The notes under the pieces: model-generated
The model's input: only the letters and a program-made list of their open reading frames with translations
Databases searched by the model: none
Told to the model about the DNA's origin: nothing
Source of the DNA: Polaribacter sp. SA4-12
Lineage (GTDB): Bacteria > Bacteroidota > Bacteroidia > Flavobacteriales > Flavobacteriaceae
Length of the DNA: 64,000 bases
Direction of reading: 5' to 3'
Assembly (NCBI RefSeq): GCF_002163675.1
Contig: NZ_CP019334.1
Coordinates: 320,001-384,000, forward strand
Position numbers and translations under genes: made by a program
Shown: positions 57,501 through 64,000 of the stretch, one piece after another
Numbering within the stretch: position 1 is the first letter of the stretch
Layout of the letters: every line of letters starts with the position of its first letter

Positions 57501-58114
57501 TATTTATCTTTTTTTAGAAACAAGTTCTGTTTAATATTTTTTAATCTTTTAAAAACGCTTTCTTTAATTTTTTCTGGTTTCTCCTTATTTTGATTTTTAG
57601 GATCAAACAACATACCAGTACACAAACACATTTTTCTTTCTGTTCTTGTTAAAACATCGTAATTTCTACACGTTTTACAACCATCCCAGAAAGTTTGATC
57701 ATCTGTTAATTCAGAAAAAGTAACGGGTTTATAACCTAAATCGCTATTTAGTTTCATTACAGGCAAACCTGTTGTGATACTAAATACTTTTGCATTTGGA
57801 AACTTGGTTCTTGAATGTTTAAATATTACCTCTTTAATTTGTTTTGCTAATCCTAAATTTCTAAAATCTGGATGTACAATTAACCCTGAATTGGCAACAA
57901 ATTTTCCATGTCCCCATTTTTCAATATAGCAAAACCCTGCAAATTTGCCATTTTCTAAAGCAATTACAGCATTACCATTTTCCATTTTAGTGGCTATATA
58001 TTCAGGTTTTCTTTTAGCAATCCCTGTTCCTCTAACTTGAGCAGCATCTTCTATGGTTTTACATATAATATCTGCGTAAACGGTATGTGATTTGTTAGCA
58101 ATTACAATTTCCAT
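57500..58114 (-). CDS. GNAT acyltransferase at head of arginine cluster (candidate ArgA function)
   Basis: 204 residues. The GNAT core is SGLIVHPDFRNLGLAKQIKEVIFKHSR (acetyl-CoA site with R-N-x-G-x-A). It then departs from the usual fold: a Cys cluster CKTCRNYDVLTRTERKMCLC could bind a metal, followed by a basic C-terminal tail (KNIKQNLFLKKDK). Its one-base overlap with argG and its place at the head of the operon, with no other ArgA or ArgJ in the window, suggest it acylates glutamate to start the pathway. This is inference; sequence alone does not show the substrate. Confidence 0.75.
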   Translation of the reverse strand: MEIVIANKSHTVYADIICKTIEDAAQVRGTGIAKRKPEYIATKMENGNAVIALENGKFAGFCYIEKWGHGKFVANSGLIVHPDFRNLGLAKQIKEVIFKHSRTKFPNAKVFSITTGLPVMKLNSDLGYKPVTFSELTDDQTFWDGCKTCRNYDVLTRTERKMCLCTGMLFDPKNQNKEKPEKIKESVFKRLKNIKQNLFLKKDK

Positions 58115-58235
58115 TGCATTGTGTTTTTATGTTATAAAATTGTTGTTTGTTTTGTTTGAAAGTAGAATCGGACTCACCTAAATTCCATAATAGTTTAAAC
58201 ACCCAAAGGGCGAATAATAAAACTGCTTCGTACAT
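58095..58235 (-). CDS. Candidate 46-residue membrane peptide overlapping the GNAT start
   Basis: ATG at 58235 opens a frame ending TAA at 58095, overlapping the GNAT start by 20 bp. It reads MYEAVLLFALWVFKLLWNLG (one hydrophobic helix), then a polar part and a Cys-containing end (TQCNGNCNC). Upstream is an A-rich region that could serve as ribosome site (AAAAAATAACA). It has no Arg codons, so a classical Arg attenuator is unlikely. Coding status is uncertain. Confidence 0.35.
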   Translation of the reverse strand: MYEAVLLFALWVFKLLWNLGESDSTFKQNKQQFYNIKTQCNGNCNC

Positions 58236-58616
58236 TGTTATTTTTTATAATAACTGAAGGTTGCAAGTAAGTTTTGTAAGAAAGATTCACGATAAAAAAA
58301 TAAATGGTTAAATACTGTAATAAGTTGACTTGTAGCTAAAGTAGAATATTAGCGACGGCGGTTGCGCAAGCGCAAGCTGGGAACTATTGTAGTACATAAT
58401 TTATTTCTTCTTGAAGTAATCATATGGCTAAAGTATATCTTTTTTAAAAAGTATTATCATAAGTGCAACTCTTTTTTAGAAGTTTTATCAAATTTAAACA
58501 AAATTCGATTTTGAGTTAAAAATAAATCAATAGAATAGACAAATAATTCATTTTTGATAATTTTAAATAGACAACAATGTTCTTTATGATAAATTAGAAA
58601 GTAGCTTAAAACTAAA
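58236..58616. other. Intergenic region between arginine cluster and nnr
   Basis: About 380 bp. It must hold the arg cluster promoter on the minus strand, but I do not find a clean consensus. A GC-rich island (GGCGGTTGCGCAAGCGCAAGC, split here: TTGCGC-AA-GCGCAA at about 58361-58374) forms a small hairpin unlike its AT-rich surroundings. No tRNA, riboswitch I can name, or further ORF. Confidence 0.4.
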
Positions 58617-60104
58617 TTATTCAGTTTCAATTTTTAAATAATTGATAATATCTGAAGCAATTAATGCATTTTCCCCTTTTTGTTTGTTAGCATCATCTCC
58701 TGCTTTTCCATGAAAATATACGCCAATTAAAGAAGCTTTAATTGAAGTGTAACCTTGCGCCAATAATCCTGTAATTATTCCTGTAAGAACATCTCCGCTT
58801 CCGCCAGTTGCCATTCCAGAATTTCCAGAAGTATTAAAAAAAAGGACTCCTTCTGAATTACAAATACACGTATTTGCACCTTTTAAAATAACAATACATT
58901 TATGTTCTTTTGCAAACTGTTTTTGTTTCTCAAAACATTCTATAGTGGTTTTCCATTTACCAACTAATCTTTCAAATTCTTTTGGATGTGGAGTTAAAAT
59001 TGAGTTTTTGGGTAATAACTTCATTAATTCTCTATTCTCAGAAATAATATTTAAAGCATCAGCATCAATAACCAATGGAACTTTTGTTGATTCAAAAAGT
59101 TGTTTTAATACTCCTTTTGTGGAATTGTTTTTCCCAATTCCTGGACCGATTCCAATAGAATTATAAGAAGAAATGTCAGGTAGTTTAGAAATATAGGTTT
59201 TCTTTTTATCTGTTAAACACATTGCTTCTGGCGTTGAAAATTGCAAAATATCGTATCCACAATTTGGAATATAAGTTGTTAAAAGTCCGGTGCCAGATTT
59301 TAAACAAGCTTGAGAAGCCAAAACTGCAGCTCCGATTTTTCCATAAGAACCTGCAATAATTAACGAATGACCAAATGTACCTTTATGTGAATGTTTCTCT
59401 CTTTTTTTTACAATTTTAGAAATTGTACCATCTAAAACAAAATGATTGGTTGGTAGTTCTTGAATAAAATCTTCATCTAAACCTATGTTTATTACTTTCC
59501 AATCTTTAATATATTGATTACTTTCTTTAAAGAAAAAAGAGAGTTTTGGTCTTTGAAAACTAATTGTAATATTAGATTTTACAATGAAATCAGAATCGGG
59601 TAATTTATCACAATATAAACCAGAAGGTATATCAACAGAAAAAACATATTTTTTTGCTGCATTTGTATTTTTGATAGTATTTGCAGCTAAACCCTCAATT
59701 TTTCTAGTTAGACCAGAGCCAAAAAGAGCATCAATTATAATGTCAAATTTTTTAAAATCGAACAAATCATCTTTTGTTTCAATAATTGTTACTTCCGCTA
59801 GTTTGTTAAAATTGGTTTTACAATCATTAGAAAGATTTTTAGTGGTTTTTATTAAAATTGCTTTTGCAAAATATCCTTTAGCTTGTAATATTCTTGTAAT
59901 TGCAAAACCATCTCCACCATTATTGCCAATTCCACAAACAACTGCAATTTTTTGATCTTTGTAAATACTGTTTTCAATAGCATTTACAAAAGCAATCGAT
60001 GCTCTCTCCATTAATTCTAAAGAAGAAATGCATTCTTTTTTAATCGTATTATTATCGGTTTTTCTTGTTTGATTTGCCGATATTATTTTTTTGAGATCGA
60101 ACAA
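58617..60104 (-). CDS. nnr: Bifunctional NAD(P)HX epimerase/dehydratase
   Basis: Repairs hydrated NAD(P)H. 495 residues: an N-terminal YjeF_N epimerase (SSLELMERASIAFVNAI, AVVCGIGNNGGDGFAITRIL, DIIIDALFGSGL, FSVDIPSGLYCD) and a C-terminal ribokinase-like ADP-dependent dehydratase from about residue 230 (KGTFGHSLIIAGSYGKIGAAVLAS, IGPGIGKNNST, VIDADALNIISEN, LTPHPKEFERLVG, NSGMATGGSGDVLTGIITGL). Single gene, minus strand, divergent from the DUF2141 gene. Confidence 0.96.
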   Translation of the reverse strand: MFDLKKIISANQTRKTDNNTIKKECISSLELMERASIAFVNAIENSIYKDQKIAVVCGIGNNGGDGFAITRILQAKGYFAKAILIKTTKNLSNDCKTNFNKLAEVTIIETKDDLFDFKKFDIIIDALFGSGLTRKIEGLAANTIKNTNAAKKYVFSVDIPSGLYCDKLPDSDFIVKSNITISFQRPKLSFFFKESNQYIKDWKVINIGLDEDFIQELPTNHFVLDGTISKIVKKREKHSHKGTFGHSLIIAGSYGKIGAAVLASQACLKSGTGLLTTYIPNCGYDILQFSTPEAMCLTDKKKTYISKLPDISSYNSIGIGPGIGKNNSTKGVLKQLFESTKVPLVIDADALNIISENRELMKLLPKNSILTPHPKEFERLVGKWKTTIECFEKQKQFAKEHKCIVILKGANTCICNSEGVLFFNTSGNSGMATGGSGDVLTGIITGLLAQGYTSIKASLIGVYFHGKAGDDANKQKGENALIASDIINYLKIETE

Positions 60105-60295
60105 AATTTAAGTTTTAAAGTGAACTTAAAGTTACATTTTTTTAACAAGATACTTGCTTTTAGATGCTAAATAGTATCAAATTATACTCGAAATTACAAT
60201 TCATCCTAAAAAAAATACAACTCGGTATTCTTTAATTTTAAAAACTATCCTTGTGTTGCATATTTGTATCATAATTAACCATTAAAACAAAAATT

Positions 60296-60709
60296 ATGAA
60301 ACTTATAGTAGCAATTTTAACGACAACAATTTTATTTATTACAAACTCAATAACTGCTCAAAACAATACAATTACTGCAACAGTTATAAATGTAACTTCA
60401 GATACAGGTAAAGTAGGATATGCATTATATGACAAAACTAATTTTAGAATGAAACCAATACAAGGTGCAGCATCTAAAATTGTAAATGGAAAAAGTGTTG
60501 TAGTTTTTGAAAACGTAGCAGCAGGAGAATATGCAATTATCTGTTATCACGATAAAAATAATAATGATAAAATGGATTTTGAAGCGAATGGAATGCCTTT
60601 AGAAGATTATGGTGCTTCTAATAATGTAATGAACTTTGGTCCACCAAAATTTGAAGATGCTAAATTTACTATTATTGATAAAAATGTATCTTTAGAAATA
60701 AAATTTTAG
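60296..60709 (+). CDS. DUF2141-family exported protein
   Basis: 137 residues. Signal peptide MKLIVAILTTTILFITNSITAQ, then a DUF2141 beta-sandwich: GKVGYALYDKTNF, VFENVAAGEYAIICYHDKNNNDKMDFEANGMPLEDYG. It includes the D-x-N-x-D-type calcium-like loop DKNNNDKMD. Function of the family is unknown; exported. It sits 31 bp upstream of the histidine kinase gene and may be part of the same transcript. CATATTTG at about 60260 is a near -7 element. Confidence 0.88.
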   Translation: MKLIVAILTTTILFITNSITAQNNTITATVINVTSDTGKVGYALYDKTNFRMKPIQGAASKIVNGKSVVVFENVAAGEYAIICYHDKNNNDKMDFEANGMPLEDYGASNNVMNFGPPKFEDAKFTIIDKNVSLEIKF

Positions 60710-60740
60710 TAAGTTTATTTTATAATATTAATTTCAGCAT

Positions 60741-62102
60741 ATGAAAACACCAAACACAAATATCTTTAAAAAATTAAAAAGCGATTTTATCGTTTGTACA
60801 AAGCTTACTGTGGTTTTAGGAATTATTTTTATCCTTATAAATCAGGCGTTTACTGTTAAAGGTATGAGTATGGTGTTTTTAATTTCTGCAATGTATTCTT
60901 TTACTTTAGGTTTAGGAAACGGAATTATTAATGAATACTTAAACTCGAAATGGGATTGGGTTAAAGAAACCAATAAAAGAGTTTGGATTGGTATGTTTAC
61001 CACCATTATATATACTGGTATTGCTGTTTTAATTATTCATTACATTCAATATATAATGCTTTTCGGACACAAGTTTGAAGACTTTTTTAGTGGGAATTTA
61101 GTTTATGTACATTTATTTGCTTTTATCTTTTCATTAGGAGTTGCTGCTTTTTTTCATGCCAAAGGCTTTATGGATAAATGGAAATCTGCAATGACGCAAG
61201 AGTCTACACAACAACAAATTGTTGCAAAAACAGAAACAGCAAAGTTTGAGTCTTTAAAGAATCAATTAGATCCACATTTTTTGTTTAATAGTTTAAATGT
61301 ATTAACGAGTTTAATTGGTGAAAATCCAAATCAGGCAGAGAAATTTACCACAAAATTATCTAAAGTATATCGATATGTTTTAGAACAAAGAAATAAAGAT
61401 TTAGTACCCATTGAAGAGGAATTAAAATTTGCAAAAACATATATGGAATTGTTAGGAATGCGTTTTGAAGATGCCGTTAAGTTTAACATTCCAGATTCTA
61501 TAAGTAATAATGAGTTAAAAATTGTGCCTTTATCATTACAGCTTTTGTTAGAGAATGCCGTAAAACACAATGTGGTTTCTACTTCAAAACCTTTAACAAT
61601 CAATATTTACGAAGAAGACACTTATTTAATTATAGAAAATAATGTAAATCCTAAAGAAGCAATAGGGAAAAGCACCAAAGTTGGTTTGCAAAATATTGCT
61701 GATAGATATGGATTGATCACTCAAAAAGGAGTGAAAATAGAAAATAACAATAAAACTTTTAAGGTGAGTTTACCGCTCCTTTATAAAATGAACGATATTA
61801 TGTACACAGAAGATTTAGAAAATAGCAACTATGTAAAAGCAGTAGAAAGAGTAGAAAAACTGAAAGAGTTTTATCAAAATTTAGCTTCATACTGTTTGGT
61901 AATTCCTTTTTTAATTTTTATCAATTTACGTTTTTCACCAGGTTTTCACTGGTTCTGGTTTCCAATATTTGGATGGGGAATGGGATTAACTTTCCACTTT
62001 TTAGAAGTGAATAATTACAATATTTTCTTAGGAAAAAATTGGGAAGACAAAAAGATTAAAGAAATGATGGATAAAGAGAATCAACATAACAGAACAAGAT
62101 AA
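60741..62102 (+). CDS. LytS-type sensor histidine kinase with C-terminal 2TM domain
   Basis: 453 residues. Four N-terminal TM helices (about 20-37, 42-62, 82-107, 118-140), then a His_kinase domain with the phospho-acceptor His179 in NQLDPHFLFNSLN, N-box LLLENAVKHN (268-277) and G-box VGLQNIADRYG (314-324). After the ATPase core comes a full 2TM domain (362-444: KAVERVEKLKEFYQNLASY, HWFWFPIFGWGMG, GKNWEDKKIKEMM). The same domain makes up the five following genes. The cognate regulator is presumably the LytTR-type gene at 63896. Its stop and the next ATG overlap (TAATG). Confidence 0.92.
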   Translation: MKTPNTNIFKKLKSDFIVCTKLTVVLGIIFILINQAFTVKGMSMVFLISAMYSFTLGLGNGIINEYLNSKWDWVKETNKRVWIGMFTTIIYTGIAVLIIHYIQYIMLFGHKFEDFFSGNLVYVHLFAFIFSLGVAAFFHAKGFMDKWKSAMTQESTQQQIVAKTETAKFESLKNQLDPHFLFNSLNVLTSLIGENPNQAEKFTTKLSKVYRYVLEQRNKDLVPIEEELKFAKTYMELLGMRFEDAVKFNIPDSISNNELKIVPLSLQLLLENAVKHNVVSTSKPLTINIYEEDTYLIIENNVNPKEAIGKSTKVGLQNIADRYGLITQKGVKIENNNKTFKVSLPLLYKMNDIMYTEDLENSNYVKAVERVEKLKEFYQNLASYCLVIPFLIFINLRFSPGFHWFWFPIFGWGMGLTFHFLEVNNYNIFLGKNWEDKKIKEMMDKENQHNRTR

Positions 62103-62425
62103 TGGAAAAAGAATTCACTAAAGAACAGCAATATGTTCTGGCTCGTAAAAGAGTAGAAAAGATTAGTAAGTTTTATAAACATTTAGCGAGTTACATTGTT
62201 GTAAATATATTTTTAACTGCTATTTTTATTGTAGGTGATATGAATGATGGAGATTCTTTTAAAGAAGCTTTTACAGATTACCATAATTATAAAATTTGGT
62301 TGTATTGGGGAATCGGAATTGCTTTTCAGGCTTTAAATACTTTTGGTTTAAATCTGTTTATGAGTAAAGACTGGGAAGAGAAAAAGATTAAAAAATACAT
62401 GGACGAACAAGATAATAGAAGGTAA
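62102..62425 (+). CDS. 2TM domain protein 1
   Basis: 107 residues, the 2TM domain alone: basic N-terminal helix (EQQYVLARKRVEKISKFYKHLASY), TM1 (IVVNIFLTAIFIVG), a loop of about 26 residues (DMNDGDSFKEAFTDYHNY), TM2 (WLYWGIGIAFQALNTFGL) and the SKDWEEKKIKKYMDE end. This copy and copies 4 and 5 have the long, acidic loop; copies 2 and 3 have the short HWFWF loop. ATG overlaps the kinase stop by one base. Confidence 0.85.
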   Translation: MEKEFTKEQQYVLARKRVEKISKFYKHLASYIVVNIFLTAIFIVGDMNDGDSFKEAFTDYHNYKIWLYWGIGIAFQALNTFGLNLFMSKDWEEKKIKKYMDEQDNRR

Positions 62426-62427
62426 TT

Positions 62428-62715
62428 ATGGATTCTAATCAAATACAACAACAGCGTTATTTGAAAGCTCAAAAGAGAGTAAAAGACATTAAAGGGTTTT
62501 ATACGCATTTAACAATTTACTGTTTAATTATACCCGTAATTATTTTTATGAATTTAAAATTTGAACCTCATTTTCATTGGTTTTGGTTCTCTGTTTATGG
62601 TTGGGGTTCTGGACTTTTTATTCATTGGTTAACCGTTTTTGGATTCAAGTTATTAGGAATTGGAAAAAATTGGGAAGAGAAAAAAATTAAAGAGTTTATG
62701 AACGAGAATAATTAA
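62428..62715 (+). CDS. 2TM domain protein 2
   Basis: 95 residues. YLKAQKRVKDIKGFYTHLTIY helix, TM1 (CLIIPVIIFMNL), short loop KFEPHFHWFWFSVYGWGSG, TM2 (LFIHWLTVFGFKLLG), IGKNWEEKKIKEFM end. It is of the short-loop type and closest to copy 3 and to the kinase's own C-terminal domain. It begins 2 bp after copy 1. Confidence 0.85.
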   Translation: MDSNQIQQQRYLKAQKRVKDIKGFYTHLTIYCLIIPVIIFMNLKFEPHFHWFWFSVYGWGSGLFIHWLTVFGFKLLGIGKNWEEKKIKEFMNENN

Positions 62716-62719
62716 GGTT

Positions 62720-63028
62720 ATGCAACAAAATTTCACAAAAGAACAATCATATATTAAGGCAAAAAAGAGAGTTAAAGATATAAAAGGATTCTATATCCAT
62801 TTCTCTGTTTATTGTATTGTAATTCCTATAATAATTGCAGTAAACTTACTGTTTTCTCCAGGTTTTCATTGGTTTTGGTTTTCGTTATTAGGTTGGGGAG
62901 TTGGTGTTTTCTTTCACTGGATGGCTGTTTTTGGGTTTAGAAAAATAGGTTTTGGAAAAGATTGGGAAGAAAAAAAGATTAAAGAATTAATGGAAGAACA
63001 ACAAAAAAAGGACAGAAACCATGGATAA
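62720..63028 (+). CDS. 2TM domain protein 3
   Basis: 102 residues. SYIKAKKRVKDIKGFYIHFSVY helix, TM1 (CIVIPIIIAVNLLF), short loop SPGFHWFWFSLLGWGVG (nearly identical to the loop in the kinase), TM2 (VFFHWMAVFGFRKIG), GKDWEEKKIKELM end. It overlaps copy 4 by 8 bp. Confidence 0.85.
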   Translation: MQQNFTKEQSYIKAKKRVKDIKGFYIHFSVYCIVIPIIIAVNLLFSPGFHWFWFSLLGWGVGVFFHWMAVFGFRKIGFGKDWEEKKIKELMEEQQKKDRNHG

Positions 63029-63356
63029 TAAATTTAGACAAGAAGACAGTTTTTTAAGAGCTAAAAAGAGAGTGAAAGCTATAAAAGGGTTTTATGTTCA
63101 CTTAATTGTTTATGTTTTATCAAACATTTGTATTAGTGGAATTATCATATGGGGATTAATGGAAAGTGGTTATCGTTTTGAAGATACTCTTTCTAATTTC
63201 GGAGTGTATTCTACTTGGGTTTTCTGGGGAATAGGAATGTTTTTTCACTGGTTAGGCGTTTTTGGTTTTAAGTCTTTAGGCTTTGGTAATGATTGGGAAG
63301 AAAAGAAAATTAAAGAATTGATGGACAAAGAAGAGCAACGTAATAAAAATATGTAA
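63021..63356 (+). CDS. 2TM domain protein 4
   Basis: 111 residues. SFLRAKKRVKAIKGFYVHLIVY helix, TM1 (VLSNICISGIIIWGL), long loop (MESGYRFEDTLSNFGVYS), TM2 (TWVFWGIGMFFHWLGVFG), FGNDWEEKKIKELMDKEEQR end. Its start lies inside the end of copy 3. Confidence 0.85.
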   Translation: MDNKFRQEDSFLRAKKRVKAIKGFYVHLIVYVLSNICISGIIIWGLMESGYRFEDTLSNFGVYSTWVFWGIGMFFHWLGVFGFKSLGFGNDWEEKKIKELMDKEEQRNKNM

Positions 63357-63360
63357 AGCG

Positions 63361-63672
63361 ATGGAAAACCTAAGTGAGAAAAAATTATTAAGAGCAAAAC
63401 TAAGAGTAGAAGAAATTAAAAAATTCTACAAACACGTTGTTACTTATATATTGGTAAATTTGTTTTTAGCTTTTGTTTGGAATTTCTCTTTTAAAATATT
63501 TGGAGATTTTAAAGTCAGTAATCAATTTGATGGAGATGGTTTTACGCACATTCCTATTTGGTTGGTTTGGGGAATATTTTTAGTATTTCATGGTTTAAAA
63601 ACTTTCGGATATCTTAATTTTTTTGGTAAAGATTGGGAAGAAAGAAAGATTAAAGAATTTATGGAAGAGTGA
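63361..63672 (+). CDS. 2TM domain protein 5
   Basis: 103 residues. KLLRAKLRVEEIKKFYKHVVTY helix, TM1 (ILVNLFLAFVWNF), long loop with GDFKVSNQFDGDGFTH, TM2 (IWLVWGIFLVFHGLKTFGYL), FGKDWEERKIKEFM end. It is the last of the array; a repeat-rich spacer of 223 bp separates it from the response-regulator gene. Confidence 0.85.
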   Translation: MENLSEKKLLRAKLRVEEIKKFYKHVVTYILVNLFLAFVWNFSFKIFGDFKVSNQFDGDGFTHIPIWLVWGIFLVFHGLKTFGYLNFFGKDWEERKIKEFMEE

Positions 63673-63673
63673 A

Positions 63674-63877
63674 GTTAGTTGTAAAGTTTCAAAGTAACAA
63701 AGTAACATAGGTTTAAAGGTTCAAAGGTCGTTTATGTCATTCCGAAATGAGCTTTTTTAAGCGATTGAGGAATCTTAATAATTAATAATAACAAACAAAT
63801 ATTAGACTGAACTTGTCGAAGTCCAGTAATCAAAAATTTCAATAATCTATTAATCTAGCGATCCAATAATCTATTTA
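63674..63877 (+). repeat. Repeat-rich spacer before the response regulator
   Basis: Holds three repeat types: a period-8 array GTTTCAAA/GTAACAAA/GTAACATA (63688-63712), a GTCATTCCGA repeat with GGAATCTT end (63736-63776) and a second period-8 array AATAATCT/ATTAATCT/AGCGATCC/AATAATCT (about 63841-63873). It resembles spacers elsewhere in the window and may space or insulate the regulator gene. Confidence 0.55.
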
Positions 63878-63895
63878 AAAATAATATATAAAAGA

Positions 63896-64000
63896 ATGAA
63901 CGTATTAATAATTGAAGATGAAAAGCCAGCAGCAAGAAGGCTAAATAGAATGTTAGCAACATTAGATTTAGAAGTTCAGCAAATGTTACATTCTGTAGAA
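63896..64000 (+). CDS. LytTR-type response regulator, 3' part outside window
   Basis: The first 35 residues of a receiver domain: MNVLIIEDEKPAARRLNRML, with the acidic pocket Glu7-Asp8-Glu9. IIEDEKPAARRL at the N-terminus is typical of LytR/AlgR-family regulators paired with LytS-type kinases. The LytTR output domain is not seen because the window ends. Start ATG at 63896. Confidence 0.85.
   Translation, partial: MNVLIIEDEKPAARRLNRMLATLDLEVQQMLHSVE

Follow-up and report, generated by a model that had tools for sequence, protein, structure and literature searches.

Why should a histidine kinase be encoded together with several separate copies of its own membrane tail? The question is raised by an operon at the end of a 64,000-nucleotide (nt) stretch of the Polaribacter sp. 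SA4-12 genome (contig NZ_CP019334.1, positions 320,001 to 384,000 of the forward strand), here called the window and numbered from its first nucleotide. In this operon a gene for a DUF2141 protein is followed by a kinase gene ending in a 2TM domain (PF13239), by five small genes encoding the same domain, and by the gene for a LytTR response regulator. The reading that we favor, with a probability of roughly 0.6, is that of an autoregulated envelope two-component system that induces the small 2TM proteins as partners acting on the kinase tail. The original prediction, made from the sequence of the window, had the small proteins forming hetero-oligomers with the kinase and tuning or sensing membrane state. 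Taken as a whole, that proposal was partly supported; the LytTR-type boxes upstream of the operon and the regulon that they define are additions to it.

Organization of the operon

All of the genes lie on the forward strand. The first (60296..60709) encodes the DUF2141 protein (PF09912; 137 aa), whose N-terminus was judged signal-like by eye. The 453-aa membrane histidine kinase follows at 60741..62102, with a His_kinase match (PF06580) at residues 167-245 that includes a conserved DPH179FLFN motif, and with the C-terminal 2TM domain at residues 366-444 (61836..62072; PF13239, E 1.2e-27). Next are the genes for 2TM protein 1 (62102..62425), protein 2 (62428..62715), protein 3 (62720..63028), protein 4 (63021..63356), and protein 5 (63361..63672), which match PF13239 in Pfam at E 2.9e-21 to 3.6e-29. 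The gaps from the DUF2141 gene to the fifth 2TM gene are 31, -1, 2, 4, -8, and 4 nt, and a further 223 nt precede the gene for the 251-aa regulator. The first 105 nt of that gene are in the window (63896..64000) and the remainder runs past its end; the complete gene, read from the genome (L007:9897-10652), encodes Response_reg and LytTR domains according to Pfam. The coordinates and domains originally predicted for the kinase, the five packed 2TM genes, and the regulator were confirmed.

Scored against the curated PF13239 cut-off of 24.8 bits, all six 2TM domains exceeded it, with 75.8-101.1 bits. A search of the entire genome (E ≤ 0.001) found six 2TM domains, every one of them in this operon.

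The gap before the regulator (63673-63895) contains a short inverted repeat, and in related loci the corresponding gap ranged from 0 (L053) to 1969 nt (L088), or up to about 2 kb. No Rfam family matched the region 58000-64000 at gathering scores, and a sigma-70 scan gave 28 matches where 26.9 were expected.

Conservation of the operon and its 2TM proteins

Fifty-five loci were fetched by similarity to the kinase. Fifty-one of these showed both the kinase and the regulator, and in all 51 there was at least one separate 2TM gene. This check of gene neighborhoods had been named in the original prediction as the way to distinguish a genuine link between 2TM genes and kinase from chance clustering, and its outcome favored the link. 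When 43 loci reached through 2TM matches or the window genome were added, at least one separate 2TM gene was kept in 94 of 94 operons (22 labelled Polaribacter and 9 Tenacibaculum), but because some of the added loci were chosen by a separate 2TM gene, 51 is the fair count. The set of 94 is made up of loci with both kinase and regulator, leaving aside L111, L112, and L131-L150 other than L147. A DUF2141 gene was found upstream in 47 of 55 loci. The number of separate 2TM genes ranged from 1 to 6, with a single one in the smallest operons (17 of 94).

The length of the loop, counted between the conserved Y and the WG motif, separated the 2TM domains into classes. In the window, the kinase tail and copies 1 to 5 have loops of 27, 37, 27, 27, 37, and 40 residues. 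The two loop types of the original prediction were therefore found (27 versus 37-40), but not the strict alternation that it had described, the order being short, long, short, short, long, long. That the long loops are acidic was borne out, with 3-5 acidic residues compared to 0-1 in the short loops. Among the relatives, with weak 2TM matches in the N-terminal part of kinases set aside, the tail loop was 26-28 residues long in all 104 tail domains, from 103 loci. The separate copies at kinase loci comprised 118 short-loop domains (26-28) and 188 longer ones (29-44), the latter unevenly distributed with peaks at 32 and 37. With the long-loop cut-off set in this analysis at 29 or more residues, the 2TM copy nearest the regulator was a long-loop one in 90 of the 94 operons; three loci had no long-loop copy (L036, L086, and L100).

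A tree of 159 2TM domains from 50 listed loci, inferred from a short alignment and with 81 of its 156 inner branches open, united the kinase tails with numerous short-loop copies (support 86), including copies 2 and 3 of the window. Nine other copies with 28-residue loops stood apart (support 85). Most long-loop copies formed one group (support 87), and copy 5 and its relatives another (support 96). Copies 1, 4, and 5 each grouped with other Polaribacter copies, and 4 and 5 also with copies from Tenacibaculum. In a comparison of the window with three relatives, copies 1, 2, 4, and 5 (protein 3 was left out) were under purifying selection, with ratios of nonsynonymous to synonymous substitution (dN/dS) of 0.05-0.33 in 12 comparisons at dS values of 0.6-2.5, which are partly saturated. 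Recent or neutral duplication of the copies is disfavored, both by this selection and by clades that keep their place across genera.

Neighboring 2TM domains can be covalently joined. In eight loci two separate 2TM domains were fused in one open reading frame (ORF), in every case short loop with short loop, and the kinase of L036 carries two 2TM tails. These fusions indicate that neighboring 2TM domains tolerate linkage, which is a hint of adjacency, short of proof. The conserved ends shared by the kinase tail and the small proteins had also been offered as evidence of contacts. In 2TM proteins linked to dihydrofolate reductase (DHFR), and in lone 2TM proteins of other families, the ends are similar (RVK..K.FY and GK.WE), so they are a signature of the family at large and no argument for contacts.

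The 2TM family has a lineage tied to a kinase, that of the window, and another in the Flavobacteriaceae tied to DHFR. All 11 of the loci checked for the second lineage showed the linkage, either as a DHFR-2TM fusion (L092, L093, L096, L098, and L102) or as a 2TM gene directly before the DHFR gene (L094, L095, L097, L099, L103, and L148), which suggests that DHFR is held at the membrane.

A module found beside DHFR as well as beside the kinase, and in a number of copies that varies, could be a generic membrane anchor, in which case the small proteins would be tandem duplicates with a role limited to tethering. This explanation appears improbable, since the separate copies have no soluble domain to tether, the four of the five window copies that could be compared are all under purifying selection, and every one of the 94 operons keeps at least one copy.

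A putative LytTR site and its distribution

Upstream of the operon, a direct repeat was found ahead of the promoter box of the DUF2141 gene, ACARTTCRTC-N11-ACARYTSRGT. In the window its first half (ACAATTCATC) lies at 60196..60205 and its second half (ACAACTCGGT) at 60217..60226, both on the forward strand and 21 bp apart from start to start. Of 48 upstream regions, 45 retained the 11-nt spacer between the two 10-nt repeats. The -7 box of Bacteroidota promoters has the consensus TANNTTTG. In the window the start-to-start distance from the second repeat to a box of this type (ANNTTTG; NANNTTTG, 60260..60266, forward strand) is 42 nt, and the same distance was found in 42 of the 48 regions; the rest include regions shortened by a wrong start codon. 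As LytTR sites are described in an excerpt of PMC4847170, they consist of two repeats of 9-11 nt that are 11-13 nt apart. The repeat pair fits this layout and is considered a putative LytTR site.

The pattern was built solely from the regions upstream of the operon. With up to three mismatches allowed, pattern and -7 box together gave four sites in the 4-Mb window genome, compared to none for the reversed control. Without the -7 box there were 12 sites versus 3 for the control, and the same four alone had 0-2 mismatches.

The box was then sought in 60 Flavobacteriaceae genera at up to two mismatches, where 136 sites were found versus 2 for the control. Forty-five of these genomes have the 2TM kinase, 44 known from one search and one more from another. 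The kinase status of 28 genomes was re-checked by protein search, which found the kinase in all 13 genomes for which it had been known only by ORF length and no kinase at E ≤ 1e-60 in any of the 15 genomes assigned to the group without one. The box was present in 44 of the 45 kinase genomes and in 2 of the 15 others (Fisher p 2.7e-10). In a set of 198 Bacteroidota genomes, which shares 3 genomes with the first, a site at up to one mismatch was present in 18 of the 20 that have the kinase and in 2 of the remaining 178 (p 2e-21), with none for the control. Two genomes, G189 and G001, were counted as positive through a site between the kinase gene and the first small 2TM gene.

One distant genome (G104) has, behind the same box, three adjacent genes that encode a 2TM protein, a kinase with no tail, and a LytTR regulator. 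The parts thus also occur as separate proteins, with their genes in this order after the same signal. There the box overlaps the 2TM frame if this is opened at TTG, and the first ATG comes about 80 nt after the box. The gene divergent from this set (L133:5423-8005) encodes a TonB-type outer-membrane protein with OMP_b-brl_3, Plug, and CarboxypepD_reg domains.

Directly downstream of the operon, five loci (L039, L041, L045, L069, and L073) contain a second kinase-regulator pair that has no 2TM genes. Other LytTR regulators therefore exist in these bacteria, and the box could belong to one of them, with the operon merely one of its targets. This is very improbable given how closely the box tracks the 2TM kinase in both genome sets, and given that it stands at the head of the operon itself in 40 of the 44 genomes in which it could be placed, and in G009 as well.

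Genes behind the box

Because the pattern came only from upstream regions of the operon, targets outside it are independent findings. In the window genome the first of the four sites is the one before the operon. The others precede a gene for a 718-aa outer-membrane protein with CarboxypepD_reg and TonB-plug domains; a second DUF2141 gene, followed by a gene for a 207-aa protein with TPR-like matches below the cut-off; and a gene for a Toastrack (DUF2807) protein that comes after a PadR gene and a PspC-LiaI/LiaF-Toastrack gene. The run of genes around the last of these (L168:8199-12210) encodes DUF4870, PadR, PspC/LiaI-LiaF/Toastrack (with a HAAS match just under the cut-off), DUF2807, and DUF4440 proteins. 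Beyond it are a gene for an HlyD-type protein and two ORFs that by eye resemble an ATP-binding cassette (ABC) permease and ATPase.

Of the 136 sites in the 60 genera, 40 lay ahead of the operon, 8 followed the kinase gene, and 88 were elsewhere, including the 3 of the window genome. Sixty of the other 85 were fetched; the remaining 25, all with two mismatches, were left out. With start codons set by rule (the longest ATG frame within 330 nt), the fetched sites preceded 24 TonB-plug genes, 16 DUF2141 genes, 9 DUF2807 genes, 1 kinase gene, 1 TPR-like gene, and 7 other genes, with no ORF at 2 sites. The lone kinase target is the operon of G009, and the site in G014 is located 2.5 kb upstream of the kinase tail, before an extra DUF2141 gene. 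The start codon was no more than 70 nt from the -7 box at 57 of 58 sites (median 31).

Two further arrangements were observed. In two genera (L207 and L229) the box precedes a gene for a beta-lactamase-family protein (PF00144), which is penicillin-binding-like. In G023 (C1:164745-164903; L254 and L255) a TonB-plug gene and a DUF2141 gene diverge from one intergenic region with a box facing each way, which hints at a joint function of the two proteins. In Sphingomonadales and Qipengyuania, according to portions of two reports, DUF2141 adjoins the carotenoid gene crtG (PMC5989583, PMC9241875).

An additional box was located between the kinase gene and the first separate 2TM gene in 8 of the 60 genera, with G189 as a ninth case, so the small 2TM proteins are themselves targets. 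This raises the alternative that they are outputs of the system, membrane protectants induced under envelope stress, with the tail docking the kinase to patches of them. The remaining targets are envelope-type proteins, and a copy number of 1 to 6 is what might be seen with dosage-type effectors. We nevertheless consider this alternative unlikely. A separate 2TM gene is retained in every operon with kinase and regulator, the kinase itself has the domain as a fused part, and the clades of window copies 1, 4, and 5 hold their place across genera, which fits regulators better than bulk protectants.

Features of the kinase

The kinase was aligned with 9 of 120 listed matches and with the kinases of 43 loci, giving 53 rows in which the DPHFLFN motif, with its phosphoacceptor histidine, was invariant. 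Pfam gave no HATPase match. Foldseek aligned the kinase core with the kinase domain of GanS (E 2.3e-06), and residues were invariant at positions that we take to be the N-box and G-box; on these two grounds the protein has an ATP-binding domain. The N-terminal sensor of LytS-type kinases is 5TM-5TMR_LYT. Pfam detected no such domain here, so the protein is better described as a LytTR-partner kinase than as a LytS-type sensor.

The N-terminal part of the kinase in its AlphaFold2 model (predicted TM-score, pTM, 0.41) has four long helices, which we interpret as membrane helices. Block means of the confidence score were 83-91 for residues 371-420 and 45-65 for the last 30 residues; with these values and this pTM the model does not place the 2TM tail. 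With the kinase core in the cytoplasm, both ends of the tail should be cytoplasmic as well and the loop should lie outside. The separate 2TM proteins, whose ends are the same, are most likely oriented in the same way.

Comparison with known systems

The operon shares a PF06580 core, a LytTR regulator, and two 10-nt repeats 11 nt apart with LytS/LytTR-type systems such as BtsS/BtsR and YpdA/YpdB. It differs from them in the C-terminal 2TM tail of the kinase, in the 1-6 separate 2TM genes and usual DUF2141 gene, and in having no LytS-type sensor domain detectable by Pfam.

The lia operon is autoregulated, and LiaF restrains LiaS. The Lia system (LiaIHGFSR) is the closest working analogue of the operon described here. 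As far as the text available from PMC11237479 goes, Lia and the PSP/Toastrack systems likewise encode small membrane proteins together with a kinase and a regulator and involve a Toastrack protein, and DUF2807 is placed in Toastrack. Behind the box, DUF2807 was found in the window genome and at 9 of the 60 fetched sites. The families differ, with PF06580 and LytTR here as opposed to a HAMP kinase and a winged helix-turn-helix regulator there (PMC11237479, same text). Only 2TM exceeded the Pfam cut-off in the five small proteins, which had no LiaI-LiaF-TM, PspC, or Toastrack domain. Because its kinase, regulator, and small-protein families are all different, the operon is not a member of the Lia group.

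A literature search found no paper mentioning PF13239. Papers with the phrase "2TM domain-containing protein" were judged by title, and Flavobacteriaceae appeared in none of the titles. The match for 2TM domain and Flavobacterium concerns, in the part of it that was retrieved, another 2TM protein, DUF4191 (PMC9425974). No report of the regulon was found in titles and abstract openings. The Flavobacteriaceae-wide 2TM-kinase system was thus not found in the literature searched.

Proposed mechanism

The kinase would use both its N-terminal membrane part and the 2TM tail at its C-terminus to sense the state of the membrane or envelope, and would phosphorylate the LytTR regulator, as is expected from the families of the two proteins. 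The regulator would then bind the two direct repeats a short way upstream of the promoter and activate its own operon together with genes for TonB-plug, DUF2141, and Toastrack (DUF2807) proteins. This step, autoregulation with a shared regulon, we strongly infer from sequence. If the regulator activates its own operon, the small 2TM proteins would be made in proportion to the signal. They may insert beside the kinase tail and adjust the kinase, which would amount to built-in feedback, the short-loop proteins copying the tail domain and the long-loop ones complementing it. That they act on the kinase is plausible from the conservation of the operon, the fusions, the domain shared with the tail, and their place behind the box. 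A signal from the envelope is suggested, as judged by the targets only, and the sign of the feedback leans towards damping.

Several observations weigh against the small 2TM proteins as inducible partners of the kinase. With copy numbers from 1 to 6, most copies must be dispensable somewhere. The 2TM domain is not specific to the kinase, given its second lineage tied to DHFR. The long-loop class is uneven, with a copy of at least 29, 32, and 36 loop residues in 91, 79, and 55 of the 94 operons, respectively. None of the eight fused ORFs joins a short-loop to a long-loop domain, and there is accordingly no direct hint that a long-loop partner touches the tail. The model of one natural fused 2TM pair was weak (predicted local distance difference test, pLDDT, 69; pTM 0.55), and so was that of the kinase, with its pTM of 0.41. 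The match of box and kinase also has exceptions. No box within two mismatches was found in G010, a genome with the kinase, and none within one mismatch in two f2 genomes; G005 and G054, without the kinase, each have one two-mismatch box, and G170, outside the family and also without the kinase, has one box at one mismatch. In G010 a three-mismatch box with a fitting -7 box is located between the kinase gene and the first small 2TM gene, and in one f2 genome, G071, a three-mismatch box precedes the separate 2TM genes, with TACATTTG one nucleotide off the usual distance.

The model of the fused pair, with its pLDDT of 69, was too weak for claims about an interface, and these were dropped.

A more detailed version of the inducible-partner reading can be put forward tentatively, at somewhat less than even odds. 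The kinase may sit within a membrane assembly of inducible copies and partners of its tail, in which short-loop proteins extend the tail or compete with it and long-loop proteins cap it. The LytTR regulator would set the dose, the number of 2TM genes would tune the gain of the switch, and the whole would constitute an envelope response found throughout the Flavobacteriaceae.

The kinase, the partners, the DNA box, and the targets of a widespread, uncharacterized system can now be named together, and the 2TM family, DUF2141, and DUF2807 each gain a context that can be tested. If the proposed mechanism is true, copies of the kinase's own membrane tail, induced by the kinase, would be a distinctive way of setting the gain of a two-component switch.

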